Positions 2,700 to 21,346 of a stretch of 64,000 nt of DNA are shown in pieces. The DNA is from Zygnema cylindricum (Eukaryota > Streptophyta > Zygnematophyceae > Zygnematales > Zygnemataceae). Position 1 is the stretch's first letter. Every line of letters starts with the position of its first letter. The stretch lies in assembly GCA_037447655.1 (NCBI GenBank), contig JBBHKE010002929.1:124001-188000 (forward strand), in the 5' to 3' direction. The position numbers were made by a program, and so were the translations under genes. A model generated the notes under the pieces. The model searched no databases. It was not told the origin of the DNA and saw only the letters and a list, made by a program, of their open reading frames with translations.

Positions 2700-4610
2700 G
2701 CGGTTTCACCCCGAAAGTTTGGGGAAAGGGTGTTTACAACGGATTTACGGTTCCAGTTGTGAATGGGCACGGACGTGAACGGCATTTGGCAGAAAGGAGT
2801 GACGAGCCTAGTCAACAGTGTGATGGATTGGAGGGCAAAGCTAGGACAGTTGGCCTTCCACCAAAATGTACTACACGCGTTTGCCGAATCTGCAAATGAA
2901 CTCAGAACATGCCCTTTTCTTTTTTTCATCGGCGTTTTTTTTAATACGTGTTCTCTTATCTGATTGATCCTGTTTTATAAGTTTCGACGGAATGAATTTT
3001 GTACGGTTCACGGCCCGCGCTTGCTTTTGTTCTTCAAACGGTGCATTCCGAACATGATGCCCGATATGGCGGAGTTGCTGCTTTTTGGTGGCGCAGCGAA
3101 AATGGTTTTGACGCATAGAACTGCGTTTTTATCCACCGCTACGCTCCAAACGGTCAAAACTAACTGCCCCAAACTGTCACCGTGCATTTTGTAATTTCAT
3201 GAATTACGCGATCATTTAAATTTATGACATCCGTTTTCCCATTTTTCAATTGTGAACCACGCAAATAACCTTAACTATTTAGTTAGTAGTCACTAGTCAG
3301 CATTTATTTTGCCCAGAGAATTTATTTAATTCCCAACCCTAAATCAAAGGTTTAACGTGCGAAAATACGGAAAACTGTATGTACGATTCACCTGTAAAAT
3401 GCGCATACTGTACGTGGTATTGATATATAGTACGTACTTTATACTGCGTCACAATATATATATACTTTCTATCTCACTGTACAGTTGTACCGTACGCACC
3501 GTAGAATGCTGGCTTAGTGTTAATGTTTTTCGCAAATTAAATGTCTTTTCTCCGACACCTCGTCAGATTGTTGATCCGACGCTGCGATTGAAACACAAAT
3601 CTCAGCCCGATGGCGGTCCCAAACTGAAAATTGGACGCGTAGGAGAAAAAGTTTATAAACCATAGCACACGACACAGGGCCGAAAAACTGGCCCCAAATT
3701 ACGGGCTGGGGCGGGAACCCATTTGTTGGAGTTTGGCAAAATGAATCAAAAGATTATTGGAGTGACTAAAATATTTGTACCTGCAGATTTTGTCGGTTCT
3801 GATGCCAAACCCCTCTCTACTTCCCCACTTCTCTCTCCCCTCTCTCCTCCCTCCTTTCTCCCTTCTCCCTCTCTCTCTTTCTCCTTCCTCTCTCCCAATG
3901 CATTTTAGGTAATTAATTAGAATTAAGAAATTCCCTTGATAAAAAGATTCTCCAGGTCATTGTTTGTATTCTTAACTACAGAAATAACTCTCTTTTTCCT
4001 CCAAAAGCCTCGAGCCAGGAGGCCAAGACTCCCATTGAGATTTAAAATTAGAGTGGCCATCTGCCAGGTAATGGATTTTGTTAAGGTTTTGAGTCAAATG
4101 AAAAGTTAACCCATAACGATTGATATTGATAACGATCCTTCTCTCTCCTCTCCCCCCTAAGATCCAAAACCAAGCTTTTATGTCCATTTTATATTTATAT
4201 TTTTTTGCATAAATGGTTTTATGTCAAATTGAAGCTTGACAGGAAGGCAAATGAAACTAAAATTTTTTAAAATGCTCTTCAATTACAAAACTCGCAGTTT
4301 GGTGACTGAGTGCAGAAAAATGTAAAGTTTTTGTGTAAATTTCAAGACGATGGCTTTTATCCCGATCTCTCCGAGTGGCCTCTATGCAGGTGCATTTTCT
4401 TACCCTCTTACCTCTGAGGTCTAAACTAGAAATTATTGAAGGAATTTTGTGTTTTAATATGCATTTACTAGCCACTCGTGTCAACAATGTTGTCTTTCAG
4501 GTTGTTTGACTTTTTGGGGACACAAACAAAACTGTTTTTTGTCTTTTATTTACATTTGAAGGAGTTGTTTAGTTCGTTACTGACAAAGATGGATTTTTGC
4601 AACTTTTCAG
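2700..4610. other. probable 5' region or long first intron of the protease gene
   Basis: No exon could be supported here. The first visible exon at 4,611 starts in the middle of a CBM14 domain with phase 2, so the missing half-domain must lie upstream, probably in this stretch. A C/T-rich run lies at about 3,810-3,900. Open frames here are short and resemble nothing known. Confidence 0.4.
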
Positions 4611-5628
4611 CGCATTCTACGAGTGTACTGGTGGTCTTTTGGTAAAATACTCAATTTGTAATAATGGGCTTCTCTTCAATTCACAAGCAAAAGGCTGTGA
4701 CCTTCCCCATTTGTCTTCTTGCAACCGAAATGTAATTGCATCGAATGCGGAAGAACACCAAGAAGGAGAAGTAGAAGAGATCAACTCTAATGTTAATAAT
4801 GGTTTGCGATTACCCACAAAAATAATTTCTACTGAGTACGCGGATCCCAAAGGACACGAGTATACTCATCATGGTCGATCCCTAATTAATAATCCCAGTA
4901 AGGGAAAACATTCCCTAGGAGTAGGAAAACATCCTCCAGGAGTAGGAAAACATCCTCCAGGAGTAGGAAAACATCCTCCAGGAGTAGGGAAACATCCTCC
5001 AGGAGTAGGAAAACATCCTCCAGGAGTAGGAAAACATCCTCCAGGAGTAGGGAAACATCCTCCAGGAGTAGGAAAACATCCTCCAGGAGTAGGGAAACAT
5101 CCTCCAGGAGTAGGGAAACATCCTCCAGGAGTAGGAAAATATCCTCCAGGAGTAGGGAAACATCCTCCAGGTAAACATTCTCCGGGAAAAGGAAAGCCTC
5201 CGGGACAAGGACACCATCCTCCAGGGAAGGGAGAGCATCCTCCAGGGAAGGGAGAGCATCCTCCAGGAAAAGGAAAGCATCCTCCAAATAATGGACGAAA
5301 ACGAGGACATCATCCTCCTGGAAAAGGAAGACATCCTCCGGGTAGAGGGAGACATCCTCCAGGAGTGGGAGGGCATAGAGGAGACCCATGTTTTCGGGGA
5401 CCACATGATCCTCCCATAAAGAACAAGAACAGAACGAGACCAGACGGAGCATGTTTACCAAGTCCCCCTTCCCCCCCTAACTCTTCTCCTTCCCCTAATT
5501 TCATGCCTCCTATTTTCTCACCGCCCATTGTCCCAACTCCAATTTTCCTATCTCCTCTTTATTACCCGACTCCTCCGCCTCCCTTCTACGAGTTTCTGAC
5601 ATGGAACTTGACGGCTTTAGTCACAGTG
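4611..5628 (+). other. exon: CBM14 second half, HPPGVGK repeat, Pro-rich linker
   Basis: The exon opens in phase 2 after a good acceptor (aacttttcag) and gives SAFYECTGG, then ICNNGLLFNSQAKGCDLP and SSC. These are the second half of a CBM14/peritrophin-A chitin-binding domain. An acidic linker (HQEGEVEEINSN) follows, then a Gly-His-Pro-Pro-Gly-Val repeat, HPPGKG variants, a Cys pair (DPCFRG, GACLP) and a Pro/Ser-rich end. The GTGAGT donor is at 5629. The intron cuts this CBM14 at the same place and phase as in the second CBM14 (between Cys and Ser-Ala-Phe), which supports the exon start. Confidence 0.8.
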
Positions 5629-8600
5629 GTGAGTGGGAATGAGCGAGGGGGAGAGGGGGAGAAAGTTTTGGATGCCTTGCTTGTTACTGGTTTTTTTTAC
5701 AAATAGTGGGAGATGGGTGCTTGAGTTTTTTAGTTTGACGGTCTTGTTGAACATTTGGTGATTGATGTTTTCTTTACGGTTTATTGTTTGATCTTCTGTA
5801 GTAGTTTTTTTTTTTTTTTTTTTTTTTTTTCTGAACTCTTTTAGCCTTTCGTCTAATGTTTTGAGTGTGGTGCAGGTAGACGATGGCTGTTGCCAAGGGA
5901 GAAAAAATGGCACTTTTCAAAATTTTCTCGTCCGCCCTGCTTGCAGGTGAGTTGACACGTTTGAAACTTTCTAACTTCATTGAAATTGACAATCATGTTT
6001 CTCAAAAGATTTGTATATCTCAAGAGCCTTTCTGTCAGTCAGTTACCAAACATTATCCACGACATATATTAACCAACTGTTTTCATTTTTGCTTGGTATA
6101 GTGCCTTTTGTAAGTGCGACATTGATGGAAATTTTGTGAGCGGTGGAGTTTGTCCTGATGACCTTTTATGGGATGAAGGGAATGCAACCTGCGATTATTT
6201 TCCATTTGTAATTTGCAACAATGGAACATATAATACTCCACCTCCTCCTGCATTGCCAAATCTGGTATGTAGACCGAAAACAGAAATATTTTTTGAAACA
6301 ATAGGCAAGTACATTCTATGAATTCATTTGAGTAAAGTGTACAGCATTCATGTATCCATGAAAATGAAAGGTAAAAAACTAACATGTTTTGGAGGCAGAC
6401 TTTGTAATGGAATTGCTGCTTGATTCCAACGTTTTTTTTTAGTTTAAATGTCAGACACTCGATAAAAGTGAGATGGTATGACAAGCATTTTACAGTGCAT
6501 AAGAACTGACTCTTGCGTTTCCAATCTGGTTTGGGTATAATCAGCCGAATAACGGAGTTCTTACCACTGGATTTATCGATCATTATGCGGCAGTTGAAGA
6601 CTGTGTTGCTCCTTCTTGTACACCATTGGAGTATGTAAAAGAAAATTATCTCTTCAGATACATGAGCGTTCCGAGCTCAAAGATACGTGAAAGTATTTCT
6701 TGGACAAACTACAGTACCCAAGTCCGATACCAGGGGGTTTGCAGTGAGCTCGTGAATTCCTTCTTTCCCAAATTGCATATTTAAAATTAGAGTTCCAAGT
6801 ATTGTTTCGGCAAAGTTACAGTCTTTCTTTTCGCAGAAGGGAGAAGGAACAGGAGGAGCAAGAGCGAGAAAATGACGAAAGAACAAGGAATCAAACGGGA
6901 TTTTGTACCTGGCTTCGTTTGATAATTTTTCTTGTTGTTCCATTATTCAGGTGGATGCTGGGCGTATGCTGTTGTGGAGGCGATCGAGATCGCAATTAGC
7001 ATCAACGACTATTCAGTGGGTTCTCCCCTTTCTGTACAACAAATGCTTGATTGCCTGTCACAAAACGGAGTCACATGTGAAGGAGGAGATCCTCGGGATG
7101 CTTTAGAATATGTTGCACAACGTGGAGGGCTTAATTATGAATCTGATTATCCTCAGTTAACCGGGGAAGTGAGAGCTGGAACTTGCAAGACCACTCTGGT
7201 GAGAACTCCTGCAAAATTAATCTCATTTTTTTGCAAAAACATTCCCGAATATATGTTTATGCCTAACACAGATAAGCAGCAAGATGTAATGTTTGTTTGG
7301 TTGTCTGTTTATTTGTATTTTTTTAGGATTTCCATCAATTATGTGTTTTTGACTTAGTGCCGATGTTACCATGTTTTTTCCCATTAGGTGTATTCCACAC
7401 ATATTCATGTTTCTAGCAGACAGGTTCACCTAATACCCGGACAAAAGGCAACCTGTTGACTGACTGCGTTTATAATGATCGTGGACAACACTAATACTGG
7501 AGAAAGTTCCTGTTCTTGGGTCAACAGGAGGGTGCTTACGATACAGGAAGGAGTAAGGTAGTAGGATGGGAAACAATTTCGAGTGGAAATGCGACAGCAC
7601 TCATGCAAGTTGTCAACAGTCAACCCGTAGTAATTGGGATTTCCACTCTGTGTTTATCGATATATACATACACTTCTGTAAGTCAAACAGCACTTCTTAT
7701 ATTCATGTGTTTTAATGAAATATCTCAAAATTAAATACTTTTACTGCCATTGCTGCTCTCGGATGCATTAATCATTTAATTTATTTTTCTAATGTTAAGC
7801 GGCCACTAAATTCACTCACATCTTGATATTCTGAAAAATCAAATGGTTTAGAAGTTGCAAAAGCTTAGAAATTGGACCACACCCAATGAACGATTTCCAC
7901 AGTTTATCTATCAGTTATGGATGACGGATACTGATTTATTCCTCGGTTTTTCGCAGGGAATATTTTATGATGCCGAGAACGAATGTGATGGTATTCCAAA
8001 CCATAATATGCTTGTGATGGGATATGGCACGACGGATGATGGTGTTCCCTACTGGCTGGCCAAAAACTCATGGGGCACGGCATGGGGAGAAAATGGGTAT
8101 ATTCGTTTGTATCGTAACATGACTGGATTGGGAGTTGGAAATATGTACCAAATGGCTCCAGTTTATCCTGTCATTAACCCTTTCCCAACAGGATTTCCTG
8201 GTACTCTTGGAACAAGTCGACGTCTCTTGCGTAAGTTTTTCACTGTGTTAATTTTGTTTTGGTTATAGATTGTTTCCGTTGATCAAGAGAAATGAGATCA
8301 ATCTTTTGTCAGATTTGTCTGGGGAGTTTAGATTTATTAGAAAACACATTTTATGAGTTTAATTATGTATATGGACAAAACCAAATGGATCAGTGGGACT
8401 TTTCATTCAACTCATTTTGTTGTCATAATCTTGTGGGATTTCTTCTTTTGTGTGGAAAATGCAGAAAATACCAATAATCCTCCGCCACATTTGCTAACAT
8501 ATGAGGATCTCTTGCAAAGCCAAATGCCATCCACAACCTCACTTGCTCCTTCTCCTAGTCTTTACCCGATCGACTCTCCTTTCCCATCTCAAAGTTTTGA

Positions 8601-11600
8601 ACCGGCACCAGGGCCAGCACCTCAAGTCTCTCCCATCTCAGCTCCTCCTCCTCCAACGCCAACTCCTCTTCCTTCCATATTATTTCCTCCGCCACTCACT
8701 CCAAATCCTCTTCCTTTCCCCATGATCCCCACTCCCGCTCCTTTTCCTCCCACCATCGCGCCATCAATCCCTTCTCCTGCTCCTTCTCCTGGTCTACGCC
8801 CGATTGAGTCTCCCTTCCCATCACCAAATTTCGAACCCGCACCAGGGCCAGCACCTCAAGTCTCTCCCATCTCACCACCTTCTCCACCTCCAACTCCAAC
8901 TCCTCTTCCTTCCATGTTATCTCCTCCGCCACTCACTCCAAATCCTCTTCCTTTCCCCATGATCCCCACTCCCGCTCCTTCTCCTCCCACCATCGCGCCA
9001 TCAATCCCTTCTCCTGCTCCTTCTCCTGGTCTACGCCCGATTGAGTCTCCCTTCCCATCACCAAATTTCGAACCCGCACCAGGGCAAGCACCTCAAGTCT
9101 CTCCCATCTCACCACCTTCTCCACCTCCAACTCCAACTCCTCTTCCTTCCATGTTATCTCCTCGGCCACTCACTCCAAATCCTCTTCCTTTCCCCATGAT
9201 CCCCACTCCCGCTCCTTCTCCTCCCACCATCGCGCCATCAATCCCTTCTCCTGCTCCTTCTCCTGGTCTACGACCGATTGAGTCTCCCTTCCCATCACCG
9301 AATTTTGAACCCGCACCAGGGCCAGCAACTCAAGTCTCTCCCACCCCAACTCCTTCTCCAACTCCAACTCCTCTTCCTTCCGTATTATCTCCTCCGCCAC
9401 CCATTGCTCCTGGTCCACCAAATCCTTTTCCTCCAACCATCACGCCATCAATCCCTTCTATTGCTCCGTCTCCTGGTCTACCCCCGATTGACTCTCCCTT
9501 CCCATCACCAAATTTTGAACCGGCACCAGGGCCAGCACCTCAAGTCTCTCCCACCCCAACTCCTTCTCCAACTCCAACTCCTCTTCCTTCCGTATTATCT
9601 CCTCCGCCACCCATTGCTCCTGCTCCCACTCTTTTTACTCCTCCTCCCACCACTCCCGGCCCGTCTCCTTCTCCTACTTTCCGTCCTCCCACTCCCACTC
9701 CCACTCCAACGTCTACTCCTCCAACAACTCCTCCGGACTCGCCTCCTTCTCTTCCTCCTCCTCCTCCGGACTCGCCTCCTTCTCCTCCTCCTCCTCCTCC
9801 TCCTCCCACCATTCCCTCCCCGACTCCTTTTACTCCTCCTCCCACCACTCCCGCCCCATCTCCTACTCCTCCTTTCCCTCCTCCCACTCCCACTCCAACG
9901 TCTTCTCCTCCTACTCCAATAACTCCCACCTCATCTCCTTCTCCTTCTCCTCCTCCTCCCACCATTCCCTCCCCGTCTCCTTCTCCTCCTTTCCCTCCTC
10001 CCACTCCAACGTCTTCTCCACCTTCTCCAATAACTCCCACCTCGTCTCCTTCTCCTTCTCCTCCTCCTCCCACCATTCCCTCCCCGACTCCTTTTACTCC
10101 TCCTCCCACCACTCCCGCCCCGTCTCCTTCTCCTCCTTTCCCTCCTCCCACTCCAACGTCTTCTCCACCTTCTCCAATTACTCCCACCACGTCTCCTTCT
10201 CCTCCTCCCACAACTACAACCCCGTCTCCTTCTCCTCCTTTCCCTCCTCCCACTCCCACTCCAACGTCTTCTCCTCCAACAACTCCTTCGGACTCGTCTC
10301 CTTCTCCTCCTCCTCACCCCCCTCCTCCCACCATTCCCTCCCCGACTCCTTTTACTCCTCCTCCCACCACTCCATCCCCGTCTCCTTCTCCTGCCTTCCC
10401 ACTTCCCACTCCCACTCCAACTTCTTCTTCTCCCCCTCCTCCAATAACTCCCAACTCGTCTCCTTCTCCTCCTCCTCCTCCCACCATTCCCTTCCCGACT
10501 CCTTTTACTCCTCCTCCCACCACTCCCGCCCCGTCTTCTTCTCCTCCTTTCCCTCCTCCCTCTCCCGCCCCAACGTCTTCCTCTCCTCCTCTTCCTCCAA
10601 TAACTTCGAACTCATCTCCTTCTCCTCCTCCTCCCCCCACTCTCTCTCCGACTCCTTCCCTCCCTCCTCCCCCAACTACTCCGGCTCCATCTCCTTCTTC
10701 TCCTTTTCCACCCACCACTCCCGCCCCGTCTCCTTCTTCCCTTCCTCCTTCCCCCACAACTCCCGTTCCATCTCCTTCTTTACTTCCTCCTCCACCTCCA
10801 TCTACCAATCCTCCACCACCAAAATCAATCTGTAAGTTGAATAAATTCCGCTATTGAATTTCGTACATAGGACTGATTTTCTGTACTGTTTTGTAGTGAA
10901 GATCTGCATACTGTAATAGTTGCCAGTGGGTTTACAAGTGTGTTAAATTTAGCGAGGTTTTTGAAAAATATTAAAGAAATAATCTTAACAAAGGTGACTT
11001 TTCTAAAAGACGACTATTTAACATTCATCATGAGACCTCTACTTGTAATGCGACCATCTCTCTACTATCATTTCTCTTCTTTCCTTCTGTTCTCTTGCTC
11101 TTTTTTCTCTCTCACCCTAAACATTTCTACCCTTTCTGCTCCTTAATCAAATGACCATTGACAGAATTCACAGAAACAAAAACAGAGTCGTGACTCATTG
11201 AGAAGAAAATTCTAGTCCTGTGGAATTAAACTGCTAATTCAGGTTTTACAAGTAAAGCCCTAATAATCAACTCATGATGTTGAAAAACTAAACTGTGAAA
11301 AACGAATACATTGAAATTTGACTGTGAAAACCTCAAACCTGTGGTATCTTGACTACACTCCTTATTAATAAAAATATTGATGACCTAATCTTGATTACAG
11401 TGACCGCCTGCGACGGAGGAATCATCTATAATTCATGTGGTGGAGGAATATGTGTGCCTGATCCAACGAATTTTACAACGTACACGTGTATCTGTCCCAG
11501 TGGCTACACAAATGTGACAAGCGACGACGGAAATGAAATTTGCACACTCAGTGAGTTCTTTAAACTGATATTTTGGTTGATATGGTTTAAAACAGTTCAA

Positions 11601-14600
11601 AACATCATTGAAGGACAGAAGCAGCCAGTCACTAAGTTTCTTTAACCTCAATATTGACTGATATTGTTTAAAACTATTCAGTTGATCATGGTACCACAAG
11701 CATTTACAAAACAGTCATATAATAAAACTTTCTAAATCAGTCATATGATTGGCAGCAGCCACTTAATAAGCTTCCTTAACTAAGGCTTTGACTGATACTG
11801 TTTAAAATAGTTCATATAATCATGGAACTTCCTAACTGTTCATGGTATATTTTGTGATGCAGTTGATGTTTGCGGAGCAAAAACATACAATCCTTGTGGT
11901 GTTGGCACGTAAGTTTTTCCATTCACTTTCTTCGTTTTTCCATGTGTAAGGAGGTTTTCATTCGCATAAAGGCGATTGATTAGGCTTAGGGTGATGTCAA
12001 GTGAGAATTAGTTTTTTGTGTTGGTAATAGGGTGAAAGTATTGTCATTAGGGTTCAAGTTGAGGGTTCTGGTTTAGGGTTCAAATTTTGCTTTCAGGTTC
12101 ACACCCTAGTAAACCCTAAAAAAAAACCCTAAAAAAATCTAAAAAATCTTGGGTTCAGGTTTAAGATTTAGGTTCTGTATCCATGATGTTAAAGCTTTGT
12201 CAACGATGTTTTTCATCCAGATGCATCAATGACAACAAAGGAAAATATACTTGCGATTGTACAAATTTCCCCGGATTCGCTCCTTATGTTAGATCAGTCG
12301 ACGGTTCTGCAACTTGTGAACCAGGTACGACTCACAGATTCAAAAGTGCGATTTCGTGCCCCTATATTTACGCACTAAACTACTAAATAGCTTTAGTGCG
12401 AAAATGGCACATGTAATACGTACTTTATTGTTGAAAAAGTGATTGTATTGGCATGAAATGCACATTAATAGATTGAAAATTTAGAATTTAAATTAAATTG
12501 GCAGGTTTTAAATGCCTTTAATAAATAAATGGTTCAAACTTTAAGTCAGAGACTACAGTAACTTACTTTTTATTTATTGTTTTAGCACGTCTATTTTGGA
12601 ATTCTAAATCGATATCTACAGAGTGAATGCATGAACAAAGGGTCCATATTTTAGTTAAACAGTTGAGTTAGAGACATTGATATGTGTGATTAATTTCATT
12701 ATGGCTAACAAAGGCAAGATGTTTAATGATTCTGCATGGTGAACTTTCAAGATTTCAAGAAATCCGCGTCCCTAGGCTTCTCTTTTTTTATATTGCCAAT
12801 TCCACTAGATTCTCAGTTATAGCCACTTCCTTTTTTTTTTCCGTGAAGAGTTTAAAACATTATGGAGTGGTCCAGGTTTTTTGAACATGACTAGCTCGGA
12901 ATTTACTCAATTGGAAAAAATGTACCAAACCTTGTTGTGAATTTGTATTAGCTGTAATGCCACAGACATAAACTTGCTACCGCAACCCACACTATTCACA
13001 GTAAGCAGTAAAGCTGATTGTGTTTATTCTCTAAAAAAGATCAAAAAGATTTGGCATAGTATTAAATCTACCAAGAAGGACTTTTAGAGTATCAAATCCA
13101 ACAATCTATATTTTTCTAATCGCAGGGTAACAAATTCAAAGATCGAGGTTTTAAGAGTATCAACTTTTAGCGATTTAAGAATCGCTGTTACCAAATCCAA
13201 CGATAAAAATGTGCATGATATTAAATTTGATGATCGAGAATAGCAACGTTCAAATCTGATGGTCAAAATTTGTTGAGGGTCAACTACACTGGTCGAAAGT
13301 GCACAGTTTCTAAGTCCAACGATCAAAAATTACAAAATGTCAAATTCAACGGTCGAGAATTGCAGAGTCATGAATTCAGATGGCTTACCAATATGTCAAT
13401 ATATATATTTTTTTAATATGTCAATCTTGCAAGTGTGTTGGCAGCGGAGGAAATTTCTTTCGAGAATTTGACTTACACTGTTCCTGATGGAGGGCTCACT
13501 TGTGCAACAATCGCTGAGACAAACCTTTTGGATCCCATCGATTTTCTGTATCTCAATCCGGTGAGTTTTTCCACTCCTTCCTCTTTTTTTTTCTCTCCTT
13601 TTCTAAATGTTGACTATCTAATTTCTTGGAGAAAATATCACCATTCAGTTTGGTTTTGTTAATTGTCATTTTGATAGCACATTTTTCTCCAATCACCAAT
13701 ATTTTTTCAAGGTTTTCTTTAATCATTTTCACAACATTTTCAGCCTTGACAAAGGCTAAAAGTTTAAAAATCACGCATAAAGTGGATGTATGTAATGGTT
13801 TCCAACTGTGGGTTTTTTGGCAGCATCTTGATCCTTTTTGTGGAAAAGGTACAAATGCGTTATTGGTTACTGGAGGAACACAAGTTGCAATTGGGCCTGT
13901 GGCTAAAGAGGGAATTACATGTGGAGTAATTTATACAACTCAGGCGGTAAGCTGTTCCCACTTTTACCCACCAAATTTATTGCAAATGGTATACAAATGG
14001 CGGGTCCTTTTTTACCCACCAAAATCTTTATGAACGTTACATATCTTTAGAATAATTTGTGGGTCCCTTTATTACCCACCGAACATATTACAAATGTTAA
14101 TATCTCTTGACATAATTGGTCGTGTATGTGGCTTAATGCCCCTTGTACCGTCAAGTACGGAGTACATACAGAAAATGTACCGGTTACGTGTATCGGGTAG
14201 GATTCAGTCGGAAATTGCAAAACAATTGAAGTGGTCCCCCCATTCTAAACGGAGCAAAGCTGCCTATGGAATTGAGTTATTCAAGTAGCTTTTCACTTGT
14301 TAGAAACCTACCACTTGGATAAGAACAACACGTCGACCAAAAACTATGTCAATGCAAAACCGTTCACTGTAAATCGCTATTACAGTTAGAAACGCTTATT
14401 CTTTGCCAGATTTCTTGATCTTATTACCGTCCATGACAATTATTGTCTGTCATAAATTATCACTCCATTCAGATCTAAATGAATAACATTAACAATGTCC
14501 TGATACTACTAATTTATTTACTCTATTGCCGTACCGGATGTAATAAAACTTGACACACCCAGCGTGACTCTAACAATGTGGCCGATATGGCGATGTAAAC

Positions 14601-17600
14601 CAGTTCATTGTTTAAAAATCTACATATTGGAAATTGAAAAATGGAAATAAAAAAATGGTCCGTCGGTATGCACGGCTGCTTCTATCTGTACATTTTAATG
14701 AAAAACAATGGTATTATTTGTTCTTCCGTGAAATTCGCAGTTGATTGGTATGTCATTTTTCCACACATCATTCCAAAGAAAATAGCAAAAATATTAGGTT
14801 CTCTGCCTACATCAGGGACAAAAACTGCATCAGACATCAGGTTCTGGTGACCTGATGCCCATCAGATTTGAAGGTTTATTATGATGTGATTTTGAGTTTC
14901 TGACCTGTCATAATGAAGCTAATTCATGTCTTCTTTGTGGTTTACAGACCGATACATGTAACAGTGTTGTGCAACTGTTTACTGCCCCACCAAAATCTTT
15001 CAGTTTGGCAGCTTTGACAGCCATCAATCCATCCAGTGGTTTAAACTGCACCAATCCGGATGCATCTCTGCCCGCAAATTTGCAGGTATATTCCCTCTCC
15101 CTCTCCCTCTCCCTCACTGCCCCGACAAACTCTTTCAGTTTGGCAACTTTGACAGCCATAGTAGCAAATAGAGTGGAAAGAATGGGAACAGACAGAATGC
15201 TCTGTTTTGATTAATGATTTCAAAACTGATACAAAACATAAGAAAAAGACAAGCTAAATAGAGAAAATATCTTGAGAGTACCCTCTCAAGGACTGAAACG
15301 TACTTTCCTATTTTGAAGGGGCACTTGACCTTTCGGTCAAGAGCCAGGGTCAAGATTTATAACCAGATCTTGACCAGAATCTAATTACGTGAAAGTACAT
15401 TGATTGTAAAAACAAAGAAAGACCGAAATACTGAAATCCTAGATACTAGGACAGACTGCACAGACTGTAGAATTCTGAATAGCGAAATTCTAGATGACAG
15501 AATTCAGAATTTCGCTATTGAACAGAAACATTAACTTCTATCAAAGATTACTCTTCTAACACCCCCCCTCTTTGTTAGAAGGTAAGACCGGCAGACGCTC
15601 GGTGCAATTCGAACTGAGGTCGATAGAGAGACTTGGTAAGGAAGTCCGCCATCTGGAGAGAAGTCTGGCAGTATTGAAAGGTGAGAATTCCAGTCGCGAT
15701 AGTTTCCCGTGTAAAGTGAAACTGGATGTCTATGTGCTTGGTTCGTCGGTGATGAACGGGGTTACTCATTAGAGCGAGGGCGCCTTGTGAGTCACAAAAT
15801 ATCTGAGTTGGGGAAGTTTGGGGAAATTGAAGATTTCCAAGGAGAGATCGAAGCCAGATCGCTTCCTTGGCAGCATGTGTCGCTGCCATATATTCAGCCT
15901 CAGTTGAGGAGAGGGCAACAGTAGGTTGTTTTTTGGAGGCCCAGGAGACGAGAGCTCCTCCGAGTGAGAAGCATACACCAGAGGTGGAGCGGCGGGTGTC
16001 GAGATCTCCCCCCGAGTCCGCATCGCAAAAGCCAATGAGGGTAGGAGAGTTGCCACCGAAGAAGGTAAGGCGTAGGGTTTTGGTGCCTTGCAGATAGCGG
16101 AGGACTCGCTTAGCCGCAAGGAGGTGCTCAGGTGTTGGGTTAGAAACAAATTGACTAAGCTGCCCGACTGCAACAGCAATGTCTGGCCTAGTGCCAGTCA
16201 TGGCATACATGAGGCTGCCGACCATGGATCTATATAGGTCATGGATGTCTCCGTGGACAGGACCACCAGAGTTGGAAGCAAGTTTTGTGTTTGCATCTAA
16301 AGGAGTGGAGACAGGAGTGCAGTTTGACATAGAAAACCTTTCTAGGACCTCAGAGATATACTTTTCTTGAGAGAGGTAAAGGGTTTTGGTAAGACGATCA
16401 CGGGTTACTAAAATTCCAAGGCAAAATTCCAATTCCCCTAAATCTGTCATTGCAAAGTAAGAGTTAAGCATGCTTTTGACGTGCAGAATTGCAGACAGAG
16501 AGGGACTAGAGAGAACAAGATCATCGACTTAAATGATGATGATTAAAAGGGACTCGTCTTTACCTTTGAAGAATATACCAAAATCGGCTGCAAGCTTACA
16601 GAAGCCTTCACGTATGAGAATGGCTTCAAGATGTTCACTCCAAACGCGAGGGGCTTGCTTCAAGCCGTAAAGAAATTTGAGGAGGCGACAGACGAGATGC
16701 TCATTTCCCGGGGAGATGTAACCTTCTGGTTGGCGGACAAATATTTCTTCCTTGAGGGCGCCATAGAGGAACGCCGTTTGCACATCCATCTGATGGACGT
16801 GCCAGTCTTGAGAGGCGGCGAGAGAGAGAAGGATGCGGATAGAGGCGAATTTGGCCACAGGTGCATAAGTCTCCGTAAAGTCGAGCCCTTCTTTTTGAAG
16901 AAATCCCTTTGCAACAAATCTGGCTTTGAACCGATCTAGGGTTCCGTCAGATTTTGTTTTGACTCTTAACACCCATTTAGAGCCGATGACTTTTCGATCT
17001 TTGGGGAGGGGTGTAAGCTCCCAAGTTTTATTTTTTTGGAGAGACAAGAATTCCGCATCTGTAGCCGCTTTCCACTCTGCGGCATACGGGCCTGCCATGG
17101 CCAAAGCAAAGGTTGGAGGGACATCAAAAGTGGCAATATTGGCAACACCATGAGTGACGCGCCTAGCTTCAATTCTGGCACTTTTCCGGAGGCCAACGGG
17201 CTGAGCGGGCAAAGGTGTTTCTGGAAGGACACGGGGAATAACGTAAAAAGGCTCATTTGGGCGGATGGGAGAGAGGGAGTAGGGATCAGAGAGTGTCCTT
17301 TGAAGAGGTAGGGAGTTTGATGAAGGGGAAGGAGTAGATGAGGTTTGGGTAAGGGAAGGGGAGGAAATAGTGAGAGGAGAGGCAAGAACATAGGGATTAG
17401 AGAGATATGTGGAGGATATTATTGAAACTGGGGCTGTTGGAGGAGGCGAGGTGTAAACGGAAGGGGAAAGGGAAGGAGGAGAGGGATAAAGGAGTTTGTG
17501 TAACAAGGGAGTTTCATCGAATGTGACATCGCGGCTGAGTGTAACTTGGCGTTCCTGGATTAGCCAAATTCGGTATGCCTTTGATTCGTTCGAATATCCG

Positions 17601-20600
17601 ACCATGTAGCCGAGTTTTGCATGGCTGCTCCATTTTCCAGCGGGCGTAAGATCCTTGATCCACGCAACACTACCGAATATGCGTAAGTGGCTGACGCTCG
17701 GTTTTGTTCCTGTCCAAGCCTCGTGAGGTGTGAGATTAGGGAGACTGGAAGTCGGACATAGATTTCAGAGATAGTTTGCCGTAGTAACGGATTTTCCCCA
17801 GAATATTGTTGGGAGACCGGCAAAATGGACCATGGAGCGTGTCATGTTGATGACGACACGGTTGTACCGTTCGGCGACACCATTCTGTTGAGGTGTGTAT
17901 GTCACTGTGGTCTGGTGTGTGATTCCATGAGGAGAGAGAAACGAGGCGAATTCTGTGGAGCAGAATTTATCGCCGTTATCTGTACGGAGAACTTTGATGC
18001 GAGAATTGTGGAAATTTTCTACTTTTGCTTTAAATTGTTGAAAAGTAGCAAAAGTATCTGATTTTCGACGAATTAGGTAGATGTGACAGTAGCGTGTTGC
18101 GTCGTCAATAAATGTGACAAAGTATTGAGAGCCGTTGTGACTGTGAACTGACATTGGTCCACATAGATCAGAGTGGATCAAATCAAGTGGTCTGTTAGAT
18201 TTGGACGTACTTGAGGGAAAAGAAGGTCGAGAGAACTTTCCTTCGACGCAACCGGAACAAAATGGAAGTTTTTGATTGGTCAAGGGTTCTAGTCCAGTTA
18301 TAAGACCCTTGGTCAAGTCGTGGAGACTAGATCGGGACAGGTGACCATATCGGAGGTGCCACTTGGAGAAGATGGCTTGTGAGGAAGCGACAGCCATGTT
18401 GGCGAATCCAATGGGCGAGAAGAACGAGAGGATATAGATGTCGCCTCTTTTTACTCCGAATCCGACCGTTGATTTTGTTGAGGATAAAAAGTCAACTCGG
18501 TCGGAGGAAAAGACGGTTGTTGCTCCTTGTTTCAAGGCCGCACCGACAGAGAAGAGATTTTTTCGTAGTTCCGGGACAAAAAGGACGCTGGAGAGGGAAA
18601 TATTGGTTTGACGGTTGGTCGAAGGTGTGACTGTACGACCGATATGAGTGGCCGTGAGGGTACTCTTGTTGCCAAGTATGATTGGCATTGGAGGACTGAG
18701 TGGAGTCATAAATGAGAACCAATCGGCGCGAGATGATAAGTGGTGAGATGCAACCGAATCAATGATCTAAGTGGAGTCAGGGACCTGAGATGATTGTTGT
18801 ACTGCAGAGGACAAAGCGAATCCATAATCGGATTGTGTCATTGATGGCGGCGGACTGACATTGTCTACCGGTGGTTGGAGTACGGGCGGTTGGGTAGAAG
18901 CCGACAATGGATAAGTAGGAATGTATATTGGGATTCGCGATCTGGAGTGATCCGCCAGATGAGTTGGGCCGTACGGATAGTGGGATTCGACAAAAGGGTT
19001 GGTCTGGGAGTACGCCAAATTTCCAAGGGCAAAAGTACTTTCAGCCGATGAAGCTTGACCGTGGTATAATCCACGCCCTCCGGGTTGTCCTCGTCCACCA
19101 GTACGGCCGGGTCCACCTTGTCGTTCATTTTTGCGTTTAAGCGCCGGACACACATCTATGATGTGATCTGACGCTCGACAATAGCGACAATAGCGACAGG
19201 TGGGAGAAGGAGATTTTGGCGGCCTGGGATTGGGTGAAAAGGTCGCCAGAGCCACTCCTGATTTTGTTTGAAAAGATTGTTTCATTTCCTCGTGAACCAG
19301 TCGCGCAGTTAGGGTCGCGCAGTTAGAGTCAGAATAGTCAGAGCAACTGGCGAGTTGTCAAGGGAAGAAATGAGGGAGGAATAGTAATCCGGTAAACCTC
19401 CCAGGATGGCCGAAATAAGATCATCATCGGAGATTGGCGATTTGATGCTCTTAAGTTGACCGGCCAGCGACTTGAGATGTTGGACGTAGGTTTGAATAGA
19501 ATCAGTAGGCAGCTTGCGATAAGTATTCAGCTGCCTTTTGAGAAAGAGCTTGTTGGACCAGGATTGATTCTCATATGCAGAGGTCAATAGTGACCATGCA
19601 TTGTGAGCAGACACTGCGTCGCGGACAATGTCGATCTGTGATGACTCTAGAGCGAGGACAAGCCGAGAGTGGGCCTCCTCGATTTTAGCGAGCCAAATTG
19701 TTTTGGCAGCAGCGTCAGTTGGTTCAAGTTCGCTGCCACTAATGATCGACCAAAGTTTCTCACGACGAAATAGATGTTCTATCTGGTATTTCCAACCGTA
19801 AAAGTCTGTCCCATTAAATTGGCAACGGTATTGGCGTTGCCGGGCCCATAACCTGTGAAAGGTGAAGCCATAGTAGCAAATAGAGTGGAAAGAATGGGAA
19901 CAGACAGAATGCTCTGTTTTGATTAATGATTTCAAAACTGATACAAAACATAAAAAAAAGACAAGCTAAATAGAGAAAATATCTTGAGAGTACCCTCTCA
20001 AGGACTGAAACGTACTTTCCTATTTTGAAGGGGCACTTGACCTTTCGGTCAAGAGCCAGGGTCAAGATTTATAACCAGATCTTGACCAGAATCTAATTAC
20101 GTGAAAGTACATTGATTGTAAAAATAAAGAAAGACCGAAATACTGAAATCCTAGATACTAGGACACACTGCACAGACTGTAGAATTCTGAATAGCGAAAT
20201 TCTAGATGACAGAATTCAGAATTTCGCTATTGAACAGAAACATTAACTTCTATCAAAGACTACTCTTCTAACATCCCTCTCCCTCTCCCTCTCCCTCTCC
20301 CTCTCCCTCCCTCTCCCTCTCCCTCTTGCCCTCCCCTCCCTCTCCCCCTGCCCCCCCCCCCTCCCTCGTGCTCTCCCTCTCCCGCCCTCTCCCTCTCACT
20401 CTCTCTCGCCCTCTCTCATATTATACATTATATCTTTGCAGATATGTGTGGAGAACAGTACTGCCTACCTGAACCAGCAATGTGCGTCATACTATCAAAT
20501 TAAAACCGAGGATCAGAGTAAAAATTGTGAATTTTTGTATAAAGGAATAACAACGGCACTCGAATTTTTTTCGCTGAATCCTGGACTTCGATGCAACAAT

Positions 20601-21346
20601 CTTATTCCTGCGGATCTTGTAAGAAATTATGATCCTTTTCTTTTACTGGTTAAGTATGTAGGAGTTTAATGTCGAAGTTGAAGAATATTTTTGTTCAAAA
20701 GTAGGCTAAGGTGAACATCTGTTTGGAGAAATCTGGTTTCTGTTGAAGTTTGTCTTTTTGTGGATGATAACTTATATTTTATATTTGATGTTCTATGTTT
20801 AAAGTTTGAAGAACAACCTTTTATACACGTTTTTTACTTGAGCGTACACATCGACTACTTGTTTACATTTTTATAAACGCCGTGTTTAGTCTGTCAGGTT
20901 TTGTGATTGCCATTCTCTAATAGCCGAGTTTTAGTTCTAGATTTTTTGTTCCTTTCCTAGAGGAATAAAAAACGTGAAAACTAAAGTGAATCCAACTGAT
21001 CGAACCATTTTTTATTTGTTTTCCTTCACTCTCTTTTCAGGTTTGTGTCCTTCCGGCCGATCCTCAAGTTTATGGAGCCACTGGCTGTGGCAAAGGTTGT
21101 ACTAATGCAAACATAAAGAATAAAGTCACCACTCTAGTGACCCTCAAAAAAGGATGGCGTTGTTTGACAATTTTAACATCTCAAGCGATTTTTAAATGTA
21201 GTACCTCTCTTTATTCTTGCCTCAATGCCGGTGCTGCTTGTAACAACAAGAAACTCACAGTTAACAAAAAAGTATGCGGGCCGGGATCAAAAAATACATT
21301 CAAAACTAAGTGTAATAGTGTTGCGCTAAAATTAAACGTAGGTTAA
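4611..21346 (+). CDS. CBM14/papain/EGF/LysM multidomain extracellular cysteine protease
   Basis: Sixteen exons, all GT-AG with matching phases: 4611-5628, 5876-5946, 6102-6264, 6545-6743, 6951-7198, 7528-7677, 7957-8230, 8465-10831, 11401-11550, 11863-11908, 12221-12324, 13445-13560, 13824-13946, 14948-15085, 20442-20618, 21041-21346 (TAA). They give 1,882 residues; the N-terminus is missing. Numbering from the GCA at 4612: CBM14 half-domain 1-36, HPPGVGK and Pro-rich region 100-339, CBM14 342-400, C1A peptidase about 465-680 (Gln480, Cys486, His632, Asn653), Pro-rich stalk 709-1496, EGF-like 1498-1546 and 1547-1597, LysM about 1605-1660, 1668-1725 and 1735-1785, Cys-rich tail to 1882. Expected role (inference): a secreted peptidase held on chitin or other GlcNAc-containing wall material. 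No I29 propeptide is visible. A copia element occupies intron 15086-20441. Confidence 0.85.
4921..5172 (+). repeat. 21-bp minisatellite encoding HPPGVGK
   Basis: About twelve nearly identical 21-bp units (GTAGGAAAACATCCTCCAGG with small changes) run in frame. Each encodes Gly-Val-Gly-Lys-His-Pro-Pro. Shorter HPPGKG units continue to about 5,370. The unit length is a codon multiple, so copy changes keep the frame. Confidence 0.95.
5876..6264 (+). other. exons: second CBM14 (peritrophin-A) domain
   Basis: Two exons (5876-5946 and 6102-6264) join in phase 2. They encode VDDGCCQGRKNGTF, then a PACSAFCKCD junction, then GGVCPDDLLWDEGNATCDY and FPFVIC. Cys spacing and the Asp-Gly, Ala-Phe and Asp-Tyr positions follow the CBM14 chitin-binding pattern known mainly from animal peritrophins and chitinases. 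A short NGTYNTPPPPALPNL linker leads to the peptidase. The domain is complete here, unlike the first copy. Confidence 0.82.
6545..8230 (+). other. exons: papain-family (C1A) peptidase domain
   Basis: Four exons (6545-6743, 6951-7198, 7528-7677, 7957-8230) form one C1A domain. Joining 6743 to 6951 gives RYQGVCSGCWAYAVVEA, with oxyanion Gln and nucleophile Cys six residues apart as in papain. Next come QQMLDCLSQNGVTCEGGDP, GGLNYESDYPQL, NSQPVVIGIS, the His motif PNHNMLVMGYGT and the Asn motif AKNSWGTAWGENGYIRLY. All catalytic positions are present. Only about 50 residues separate CBM14 from the mature start (ESISWTNY), too short for an I29 inhibitor propeptide, and no ERFNIN-like helix is visible. 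Frames and phases are intact, so it looks functional. Confidence 0.9.
8465..10831 (+). other. exon: Pro/Ser/Thr-rich stalk (788 residues)
   Basis: One uninterrupted 2,367-bp exon, entered in phase 1 at AG|AAAATACC and left at the GTAAGT donor 10,832. It encodes almost only Pro, Ser, Thr and Ala with a few Phe, Gly and Leu. The first half has long SPAPSPGL...PNFEPAPGPAPQ units; the second half has short units such as PSPTPFTPPPTTPAPSPS. This resembles hydroxyproline-rich wall glycoprotein rods of plants and green algae, where prolines are hydroxylated and O-glycosylated. Its job is probably to hold the peptidase away from the LysM end. Reverse-strand Gly-rich frames over it are shadows. Confidence 0.9.
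8696..9436 (+). repeat. 237-bp tandem repeat inside the Pro-rich exon
   Basis: Three consecutive copies with a 237-bp period (79 codons) differ at only a few bases. Further diverged copies lie on both sides, from about 8,550 to 9,610. The near identity suggests recent expansion or gene conversion. Confidence 0.9.
11401..12324 (+). other. exons: two EGF-like modules
   Basis: The first EGF-like module is one exon (11401-11550): ACDGGIIYNSCGGGICV, then YTCICPSGYTNVT and a closing EICTL. It has six Cys in EGF order with the C-x-C and Gly-Tyr signature. The second is built from two exons (11863-11908 and 12221-12324): DVCGAKTYNPCGVG, then CINDNKGKYTCDCTNFPGF and ATCEP. All joins preserve phase (1, 1, 2, 1). 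EGF modules in secreted green-lineage proteins usually serve as spacers or protein contacts. Confidence 0.78.
12040..12130. repeat. degenerate telomere-like motifs inside an intron
   Basis: The intron before the second half of the second EGF contains scattered TTTAGGG/TTAGGG words (around 12,050-12,085) and inverted AAACCCTAAA words (12,110-12,130). They are too degenerate to be a telomere end. Confidence 0.5.
13086..13380. repeat. degenerate intronic tandem repeat
   Basis: The intron upstream of LysM1 contains about seven loose copies of a 40-45-bp unit built around CAAATCCAACGATCNAAAATT. The copies are strongly diverged, so period and limits are approximate. Confidence 0.55.
13445..15085 (+). 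other. exons: LysM modules 1 and 2
   Basis: LysM1 spans exons 13445-13560 and 13824-13946: LTYTVPDGGLTCATIAETN, then DFLYLNP joined to HLDPFCGKGTN and a GGTQVAI end. LysM2 begins GITCGVIYTTQA and continues in exon 14948-15085 with DTCNSVVQLF, AALTAINPSSGLNC and NLQ before the next exon supplies ICV. The Tyr/Thr start, Cys, Leu-x-x-(I/L)NP and final Cys-Val are LysM hallmarks; LysM binds peptidoglycan, chitin and related GlcNAc polymers. Introns inside or at the end of the modules are all phase 0. Intron 13947-14947 holds three loose copies of a TTTACCCACC-containing unit (about 13,965-14,100) and nothing else recognised. Confidence 0.8.
15116..15159 (+). repeat. partial duplicate of the LysM2 exon
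   Basis: These 44 bases match 14981-15024 inside the LysM2 exon at 40 of 44 positions. The copy lies in the intron, after a CCCTCT run and immediately next to the copia LTR. Confidence 0.85.
15160..15561 (-). repeat. 3' LTR of the intronic copia element
   Basis: This copy matches 19,872-20,273 at a constant offset of 4,712. On the - strand it begins TGTTAGAAG next to a purine-rich tract (GGGGGGGTG). Confidence 0.88.
15575..17605 (-). pseudogene. copia reverse transcriptase and RNase H
   Basis: Two frames read down the - strand. 17605-16529 covers the end of the integrase region and RT: WELTPLPKDRKVIGSKWV, RFKARFVAKGFLQKEG, QMDVQTAFLYGALKEEIF and FLYGLKQAPRVW. 16471-15575 carries the rest of RT and RNase H: GSLMYAMTGTRPDIAVAVG, STEAEYMAATHAAKEAIWL, FCDSQGALAL and HHRRTKHIDIQFHF. 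The two are separated by a TAA exactly where the Tyr of the catalytic YVDD motif should be (IIII-stop-VDDLVLS). That single nonsense change would truncate RT in its active site; the rest reads well. Confidence 0.85.
17560..18709 (-). pseudogene. copia integrase
   Basis: The frame 18709-17765 carries the pre-integrase HHCC zinc finger (KWHLRYGHLSRSSLHDL, then FCSGCVEGKFSR) and the catalytic core: first Asp in LIHSDLCGPMSVHSH, second in LRTDNGDKFCS, and Glu in TPQQNGVAERYNR. The DDE triad is present. A frame break near 17,770 (NYL followed by a shifted frame, 17823-17560) interrupts the C-terminal part, so this copy is not cleanly continuous with RT. Confidence 0.83.
18767..19935 (-). pseudogene. 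copia gag with CCHC knuckle
   Basis: The N-terminal part (19935-19309) has FNGTDFYGWKYQIEHLFRRE and a body ending LTILTLTARP. The C-terminal part (19285-18767) has the zinc knuckle CRYCRASDHIIDVC (CX2CX4HX4C) and a Gly/Arg-rich stretch. A frame break near 19,300 separates them. The first residues of the long frame come from the LTR; the real start is probably the ATG at about 19,870, right at the LTR edge, followed by a frameshift near 19,820. Confidence 0.78.
19872..20273 (-). repeat. 5' LTR of the intronic copia element
   Basis: This is the second LTR copy, differing from 15,160-15,561 at about four bases (for example at 19,953, 20,126, 20,166 and 20,260). The gag start abuts its inner edge. 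Confidence 0.88.
20274..20420 (+). repeat. CCCTCT microsatellite
   Basis: A C/T-only tract of CCCTCT units with interruptions lies in the host intron just right of the copia LTR. A shorter copy of the same tract (about 15,092-15,115) lies left of the element, after the LysM2 donor. Confidence 0.92.
20442..21346 (+). other. exons: LysM3 and Cys-rich C-terminus
   Basis: Exon 20442-20618 supplies ICVENSTAYLNQQCASYY and QIKTEDQSKNCEFLYKGI, then FFSLNPGLRCNNLIPADL; exon 21041-21346 starts VCVLPADPQVYG. Together these form the best LysM of the three (Cys, LNPGL-x-CNNL, final VCV). The remaining about 90 residues have at least eight Cys (GCGKGCTN, KGWRCLTI, LYSCLNAGAACNN, KVCGPGS) and end KLNVG. 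I do not recognise this tail; regular Cys suggests a disulfide-bonded module. AATAAA-like signals lie about 21,660. Confidence 0.82.

Follow-up and report, generated by a model that had tools for sequence, protein, structure and literature searches.

What might a green alga do with a papain-like protease that carries chitin-type modules of two unrelated kinds, and does one gene encode such a protein? The question is raised by a 64,000-nucleotide stretch of Zygnema cylindricum DNA (the window; positions 124,001 to 188,000 of contig JBBHKE010002929.1, here C2201), to which all coordinates refer unless a contig is named. Its + strand carries a gene, W, for a protein of 1,959 residues made up, in order, of a signal-like peptide, a CBM14 module, a GKHPPGV repeat, a second CBM14 module, a C1A peptidase, a rod rich in Pro, Ser and Thr, two EGF-like modules and four LysM-like units. 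The gene forms one open frame, the catalytic residues are intact, and the same fusion of modules recurs in paralogues; sequence comparison places the protein in a large C1A-EGF-EGF-LysM family and in the CBM14-bearing clade of that family. With modest confidence, I propose that W encodes a cysteine protease that is secreted, acts outside the cell while held in the wall, and is targeted to polymers of N-acetylglucosamine (GlcNAc) from both ends.

Exon structure and the one-gene question

Seventeen exons from 4316 to 21346 on the + strand join in consistent phases into one open frame that closes at the stop codon 21344-21346; each is preceded by AG, and all except the last are followed by GT. 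With the start exon the gene counts 18 exons. The start exon was located because a close paralogue, A, carries its counterpart (46% identity, E 9e-14, phase-0 donor in both), and its signal-like peptide is called from hydropathy. The exons are as follows.

C2201:119731-119886 (window -4269 to -4114, ~4.2 kb left of the window), + strand: exon 1, ATG and signal-like peptide; counterpart in paralogue A
4316..4389, + strand: exon 2, N-terminal half of CBM14 no. 1; also in paralogues A, B and D
4611..5628, + strand: exon 3, C-terminal half of CBM14 no. 1, followed by the GKHPPGV-type repeat and a Pro-rich linker; Pfam CBM_14 E 1.8e-7 (exons 2 and 3)
5876..5946, + strand: exon 4, N-terminal half of CBM14 no. 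2; Pfam CBM_14 E 5.8e-6 (exons 4 and 5)
6102..6264, + strand: exon 5, C-terminal half of CBM14 no. 2; seven loci in the genome at E<=1e-3, W included
6545..6743, + strand: exon 6, pre-peptidase segment with no I29 match, and peptidase start with Q19
6951..7198, + strand: exon 7, peptidase part that holds the catalytic Cys25 (SGCWAY); Pfam Peptidase_C1 E 4.1e-46 (exons 6-9)
7528..7677, + strand: exon 8, middle of the peptidase
7957..8230, + strand: exon 9, peptidase part that holds the catalytic His159 and Asn175
8465..10831, + strand: exon 10, Pro/Ser/Thr-rich rod, by composition
11401..11550, + strand: exon 11, EGF-like module 1; Pfam EGF E 2.1e-6, two stretches
11863..11908, + strand: exon 12 (46 nt), start of EGF-like module 2; also in A, B and D, with matches in the C1461 and C1898 loci
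12221..12324, + strand: exon 13, remainder of EGF-like module 2
13445..13560, + strand: exon 14, start of LysM-like unit 1; hhalign against the Closterium/Spirogloea LysM block
13824..13946, + strand: exon 15, completing unit 1 and opening LysM-like unit 2; hhalign
14948..15085, + strand: exon 16, LysM-like unit 2; hhalign
20442..20618, + strand: exon 17, LysM-like unit 3; hhalign
21041..21346, + strand: exon 18, LysM-like unit 4 and stop codon; alignment to Closterium, hhalign

The original prediction had read sixteen exons in 4611-21346. All are present, with AG/GT flanks, consistent phases and a single open frame to the stop, and the frame bears out the predicted order CBM14, repeat, CBM14, C1A, rod and two EGF-like modules. 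The exon at 4316-4389 had been missed, and the start exon, beyond the window, is now located; the predicted first CBM14 module is real by its Pfam score, with its second half inside 4611-21346 and its first half in the missed exon. For exon 6, another possible acceptor, at 6496, was rejected because it breaks the frame. Also rejected, as signal exons, were the open reading frame (ORF) 'MRILYV...' at 3399 and the other hydrophobic ATG ORFs of the window, the sole strong match to the paralogue A candidate lying outside the window.

Three close copies of W are present in the genome: A (+) and B (-), in opposite orientation on C1983 (L009-L012), and D on C2114 (L027), with 74-92% identity to the W protein depending on the region. 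AG/GT flanks are found for 16 of 16 non-repeat exons in A, 15 of them of the same length, and for all 15 exons sought in B, 13 of them of the same length; placement accepted only lengths equal modulo 3, and the repeat and rod exons of A and B, whose placement is unreliable, were left out of the comparison. The signal exon is also present in A, and was not found in B within ~13.7 kb upstream. In D all 18 exon queries match with their order kept; the rod match is weak, that of exon 16 covers 31 of its 46 residues, and that of the signal exon 36 of 52, at 58%. Pairwise ratios of nonsynonymous to synonymous substitution rates (dN/dS; Nei-Gojobori, four regions by six pairs, D entering with its aligned exon parts only) fall between 0.13 and 0.63 in 22 of the 24 tests.

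A single fused gene is the structure to which these comparisons point, because A, B and D repeat the exon order and phases of W and two further loci, C1461 and C1898, keep a CBM14, the peptidase, EGF and at least part of the LysM block. That two genes have been read as one, the CBM14-peptidase and EGF-LysM parts being separate transcripts, is highly improbable. Hydrophobic ATG frames that could start a second gene do occur between the rod and the EGF exons of W, A and D; they are nevertheless absent from B, dissimilar among the copies and, in W, without a donor of the required phase, and for these reasons a separate EGF-LysM gene is not favoured. Moreover, W reads as one in-phase frame, and in Closterium and Spirogloea the C1, EGF-like and LysM modules are fused in single predicted proteins.

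Modules and catalytic site

CBM14 (peritrophin-A) is mainly an animal module, recognised by six cysteines at a characteristic spacing. Both CBM14 calls of the original prediction hold up, the modules starting at about residues 58 and 421 scoring 31.6 bits (E 1.8e-7) and 26.8 bits (E 5.8e-6) against a Pfam cut-off of 22.1; one module each of A and B, scanned likewise, also passes (33.4 and 34.2 bits). The Cys gaps, counted by eye on the translation, are 16-5-11-11-7 and 16-5-11-12-7, and the second module carries two cysteines beyond the six. Between the modules lie 17 HPPG units followed by a Pro-rich linker. The solved structures closest to CBM14 no. 1 in sequence are Peritrophin-A/CBM14 modules of chitinases (PDB 6g9c, E 7e-6; chitotriosidase 6so0, E 4.5e-4), which belong to animal chitinases and not to a protease.

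The peptidase, encoded by exons 6-9, scores 158 bits with Pfam Peptidase_C1 (E 4.1e-46, above the cut-off) and matches a plant cysteine endopeptidase in PDB at E 1.6e-34. Motif positions put its catalytic residues at Q557, C563, H709 and N730, and the set Q19, C25, H159 and N175 is complete in W, A, B and D; the C1A peptidase is thus complete, as first read. The Pro-rich rod that follows had been put at 788 residues and measures 790 (355 Pro, 126 Ser, 103 Thr); Pro/Ser/Thr rods are typical of wall hydroxyproline-rich glycoproteins (HRGPs). The two EGF-like modules, beginning at residues 1575 and 1625, agree with the original prediction and are recognised by Pfam EGF over its cut-off in two stretches (E 2.1e-6).

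The C-terminal block is less easily named. LysM-like unit motifs occur at residues 1682, 1743, 1813 and 1888; three LysM modules and a Cys-rich tail had been proposed, of which the three modules correspond to units 1-3, while the tail is, by alignment, the counterpart of LysM unit four in Closterium. The LysM call had been made to depend on profile scores. The Pfam score is absent, an absence outweighed by profile-profile comparison: the block of W, A and B against that of four Closterium and Spirogloea proteins gives an hhalign probability of 96.2 and E 2.7e-9, and in 60 control shuffles the best E was 0.0093 (30 column shuffles) and 0.011 (30 with Cys fixed). Since the block is significant against its relatives and stands above the shuffles, the alignments identify its units as LysM by descent, degenerate in sequence. 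AlphaFold2 in single-sequence mode gave poor models, in which exon 17 is helical only (predicted local distance difference test score, pLDDT, 74; 39-64 in the other four models) and exon 18 has a pLDDT of 31.

Relatives within the genome

The second exon of CBM14 no. 2, used as a genome query, gave 8 matches among 8 candidates, seven of them at E<=1e-3, at C2201 (W), C1803, C2114, C1983 (two), C1461 and C1898; the eighth, at C2110:156710-156820, is weak (E 0.016). A peptidase-exon match lies within 4 kb on the same strand at all seven. C1803, with equal scores, may be an allele of C2114, and by these matches five or six further copies in the genome also fuse CBM14 to the peptidase. A whole-genome search with the Pfam CBM14 profile returned no match, in my view because an intron splits the module; its controls matched nowhere either. 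At C1461 and C1898 CBM14 is split at the same position as in W, and is accompanied by peptidase, EGF and at least part of the LysM block, mostly at 30-57% identity per exon, the first CBM14 half being weak in C1898 (0.03). C1461 has a GKHPP repeat; C1898 reads CBM14, C1, a Pro-rich stretch ahead of two EGF modules, and the start of the LysM block; CBM14 no. 1 was not found in the examined stretches of either.

The peptidase exons retrieve a far larger set, with 150 scored matches among 156 candidates at E<=1e-3, ordinary papains (e.g. C1970, C547) and possible alleles included. Five family loci were sampled: C1052, C39, C1470, C2114 and C784. Besides C2114, the locus of D, each has C1 and EGF and two have LysM too, and CBM14 was not found in the 6.1-7.5 kb examined at these four. 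Two other loci, C1321 and C139, have C1, EGF and LysM, with no CBM14 seen. A tree was built from 18 peptidases, namely 14 family members of this genome, two ordinary papains, one from Closterium and one from Spirogloea, a 66-residue row from C1052 being left out. The six CBM14-bearing peptidases form one clade (Shimodaira-Hasegawa, SH, 0.976; ultrafast bootstrap, UFBoot, 100), and the Closterium peptidase groups with the CBM14-less copies (0.945; 77). On this topology there are two old branches, and CBM14 would either have entered the one or disappeared from the other. The presence in an alga of a mainly animal module also raises the question of gene transfer or loss.

The alignment bears, too, on whether the family is chiefly a chitin-binding scaffold or decoy in which catalysis is optional. 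Cys25 is replaced by Thr (ACG) in C1898, near position 3680 of the L029 reverse complement, a copy that keeps its modules, and by Ser (AGC) in the CBM14-less C1-EGF-LysM copies C1321 (L013) and C139 (L015); His and Asn are retained in these three, as in 18 of the 18 peptidases, and Q19, covered by the alignment in seven rows, is Q in all seven. Against a scaffold stand the presence of Cys25 in 15 of the 18 (W, both ordinary papains and the two from other algae included) and the dN/dS of the peptidase, 0.20-0.25 in all six pairs, and I consider such a role for the family as a whole quite unlikely.

Function, rivals and known systems

The mechanism that I infer for W is as follows. The signal peptide would direct the protease to the wall, where the rod, probably hydroxylated and glycosylated like wall HRGPs, would space and hold it. 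CBM14 at the front and the LysM block at the back would bind GlcNAc-containing polymers, so that the peptidase would be concentrated on chitin-bearing surfaces, be they the walls of chytrids or other fungi or chitin-like material of the alga's own wall, and would cleave proteins there. The role first proposed, crosslinking or patrolling chitin-like wall or pathogen material through two points of attachment, is thus borne out in part, crosslinking gaining no support from the sequence.

Several observations weigh against this proposal. Pfam LysM finds no match up to E=10 in W and none in A or B, and sugar binding by the block may have been lost. The I29 inhibitor propeptide, usual in papain zymogens, has no match up to E=10 in the scanned pieces of W; the usual zymogen route is thus without support, and activation may well differ from that of usual papain zymogens. 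One CBM14-bearing copy and two CBM14-less relatives are without the catalytic Cys, which indicates that some members can do without protease activity. In CBM14 no. 1, dN/dS is 1.08 (A-D) and 0.79 (B-D) at synonymous rates (dS) of 0.10-0.13, giving no sign of constraint. The rods of A and B each shift frame once, inside a low-complexity SPPPP run, by either assembly error or damage, and D is disrupted at the exon 16/17 junction (L027 ~2497-2680), with a stop right after the 31 aligned residues of exon 16 and an altered start of exon 17, so that only W is intact throughout among the four close copies. Finally, the one-gene fusion is a prediction from the genomic frame and paralogue conservation.

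The state of the close copies leads to another reading, namely that W itself is decaying and that a recent insertion in intron 16 blocks the full protein. The insertion is the following.

15154..20165, - strand: long terminal repeat (LTR) retroelement, foreign to the gene and lodged in intron 16; its repeats, 15154-15453 and 19866-20165, are 99% alike

Because its repeat ends are 99% alike, the element was probably inserted recently, and the intron that holds it measures 5,356 bp in W, as against 112 bp (A) and 152 bp (B) in the close copies. These lengths, and damage in all three close copies, are what decay would predict; on the other side, the frame and splice sites of W are intact, the insertion is intronic and intron 1 is long too. 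Decay of W seems a minor possibility. The coding region of the element, presumably Copia-like from a reading of its frames and motifs, is spread over several separate frames. Elsewhere in the window, positions 1-240 and ~25000-64000 hold many retroelement-like ORFs on both strands, and no clear gene besides that of the protease was noticed among the ORFs of at least 130 aa, read by eye.

Returning to the wall-held protease, its targets could be foreign or the alga's own. Volvox carteri is reported to have a pheromone- and wound-induced cysteine protease with an extensin-like module and three chitin-binding repeats, said to have been described by Amon, Haas and Sumper in 1998 (Plant Cell 10:781); it is not known to carry CBM14 or EGF, and is likened to W by description only. 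Because of this analogy and the chitinase-type CBM14 match, I favour defence against chitin-walled parasites together with a response to wounding. The serious rival, rather unlikely as I judge it, is a protease that would remodel the alga's own wall in conjugation, in the making of the zygospore wall or in the release of cells, its modules binding endogenous GlcNAc-bearing wall glycans or glycoproteins. The HRGP-like composition of the rod and the many related peptidase genes in the genome speak for it, as do the published proteases of the Volvox extracellular matrix (PMC9818292); the modules would suit the binding of a pathogen equally well.

A broader scenario, which I offer as speculation and consider improbable, is that CBM14 was fused near the land-plant root to an old C1A-EGF-LysM family, yielding doubly chitin-tethered extracellular proteins whose architecture can outlast catalysis (C25 to T) and which would form an apoplastic chitin-binding net with both protease and scaffold roles, to ward off chytrids or to build the wall. 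If the proposed targeting is true, algae near that root would possess secreted proteases that two unrelated chitin-type modules direct to their targets, and the choice between antifungal weapon, wall tool and scaffold is made testable.

How does W compare with known proteins? A protein search with the W sequence minus its rod gave 27 matches among 6,170 candidates, 11 of them from Closterium or Spirogloea. In the ten of these that were scanned, unnamed products of Closterium spp. and Spirogloea muscicola (P0001-P0007, P0009, P0010, P0014), the order is that of W, i.e. peptidase, two EGF-like modules and LysM block, with Peptidase_C1 in 10 of 10 and LysM in nine (eight over the cut-off, one below); the EGF match of the Spirogloea protein is below the cut-off. 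Identity is 26-31% over 46-84% of the rodless query for P0001-P0007, P0009 and P0010. Like W, the algal proteins have no I29 (PF08246; listed for 0 of the 11, as opposed to seven of the other matches); unlike W, they show no CBM14 (none up to E=1 in the ten) and no long Pro/Ser/Thr rod was seen. Two other queries were less productive: the EGF-LysM region alone drew no match at E<=0.001 from 4,087 candidates, and CBM14 no. 2 plus peptidase, against proteins of similar length, matched 4 of 3,052, with CBM14 listed in none.

The link to volvocine wall and wound proteases made in the original prediction fits, since fusions of peptidase_C1 with LysM are published for Chlamydomonas, proteins for which the available text mentions no CBM14 and which are likened to W by description only (PMC2728734). 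The closest protein relatives of W, in Closterium and Spirogloea, nevertheless point to a streptophyte near the Zygnematophyceae and not to a volvocine alga. According to the literature, algae combine C1A with LysM, and EGF with lectin domains of other kinds (GNA, ricin B), in contrast with vascular plants, where C1A-lectin combinations are not retained (PMC6362431), and the LysM of streptophyte algae is discussed regarding receptors (PMC7289718, PMC11289646). A word search of the available text of the Zygnema genome paper (PMC11096116) and its preprint gave 0 occurrences of 'LysM' and 'papain'. No description of the W architecture, of CBM14 in algae or of CBM14 combined with C1A was found in the literature searched, most subscription papers being beyond reach; the full order had been thought to be without described precedent, which stands for the CBM14-C1A part, and not for C1-EGF-EGF-LysM, which exists in Closterium. 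C1 with LysM and C1-EGF-EGF-LysM were thus already known, and what W and its relatives appear to add is the N-terminal pair of CBM14 modules, the double-ended layout and a CBM14-bearing copy without the catalytic Cys.

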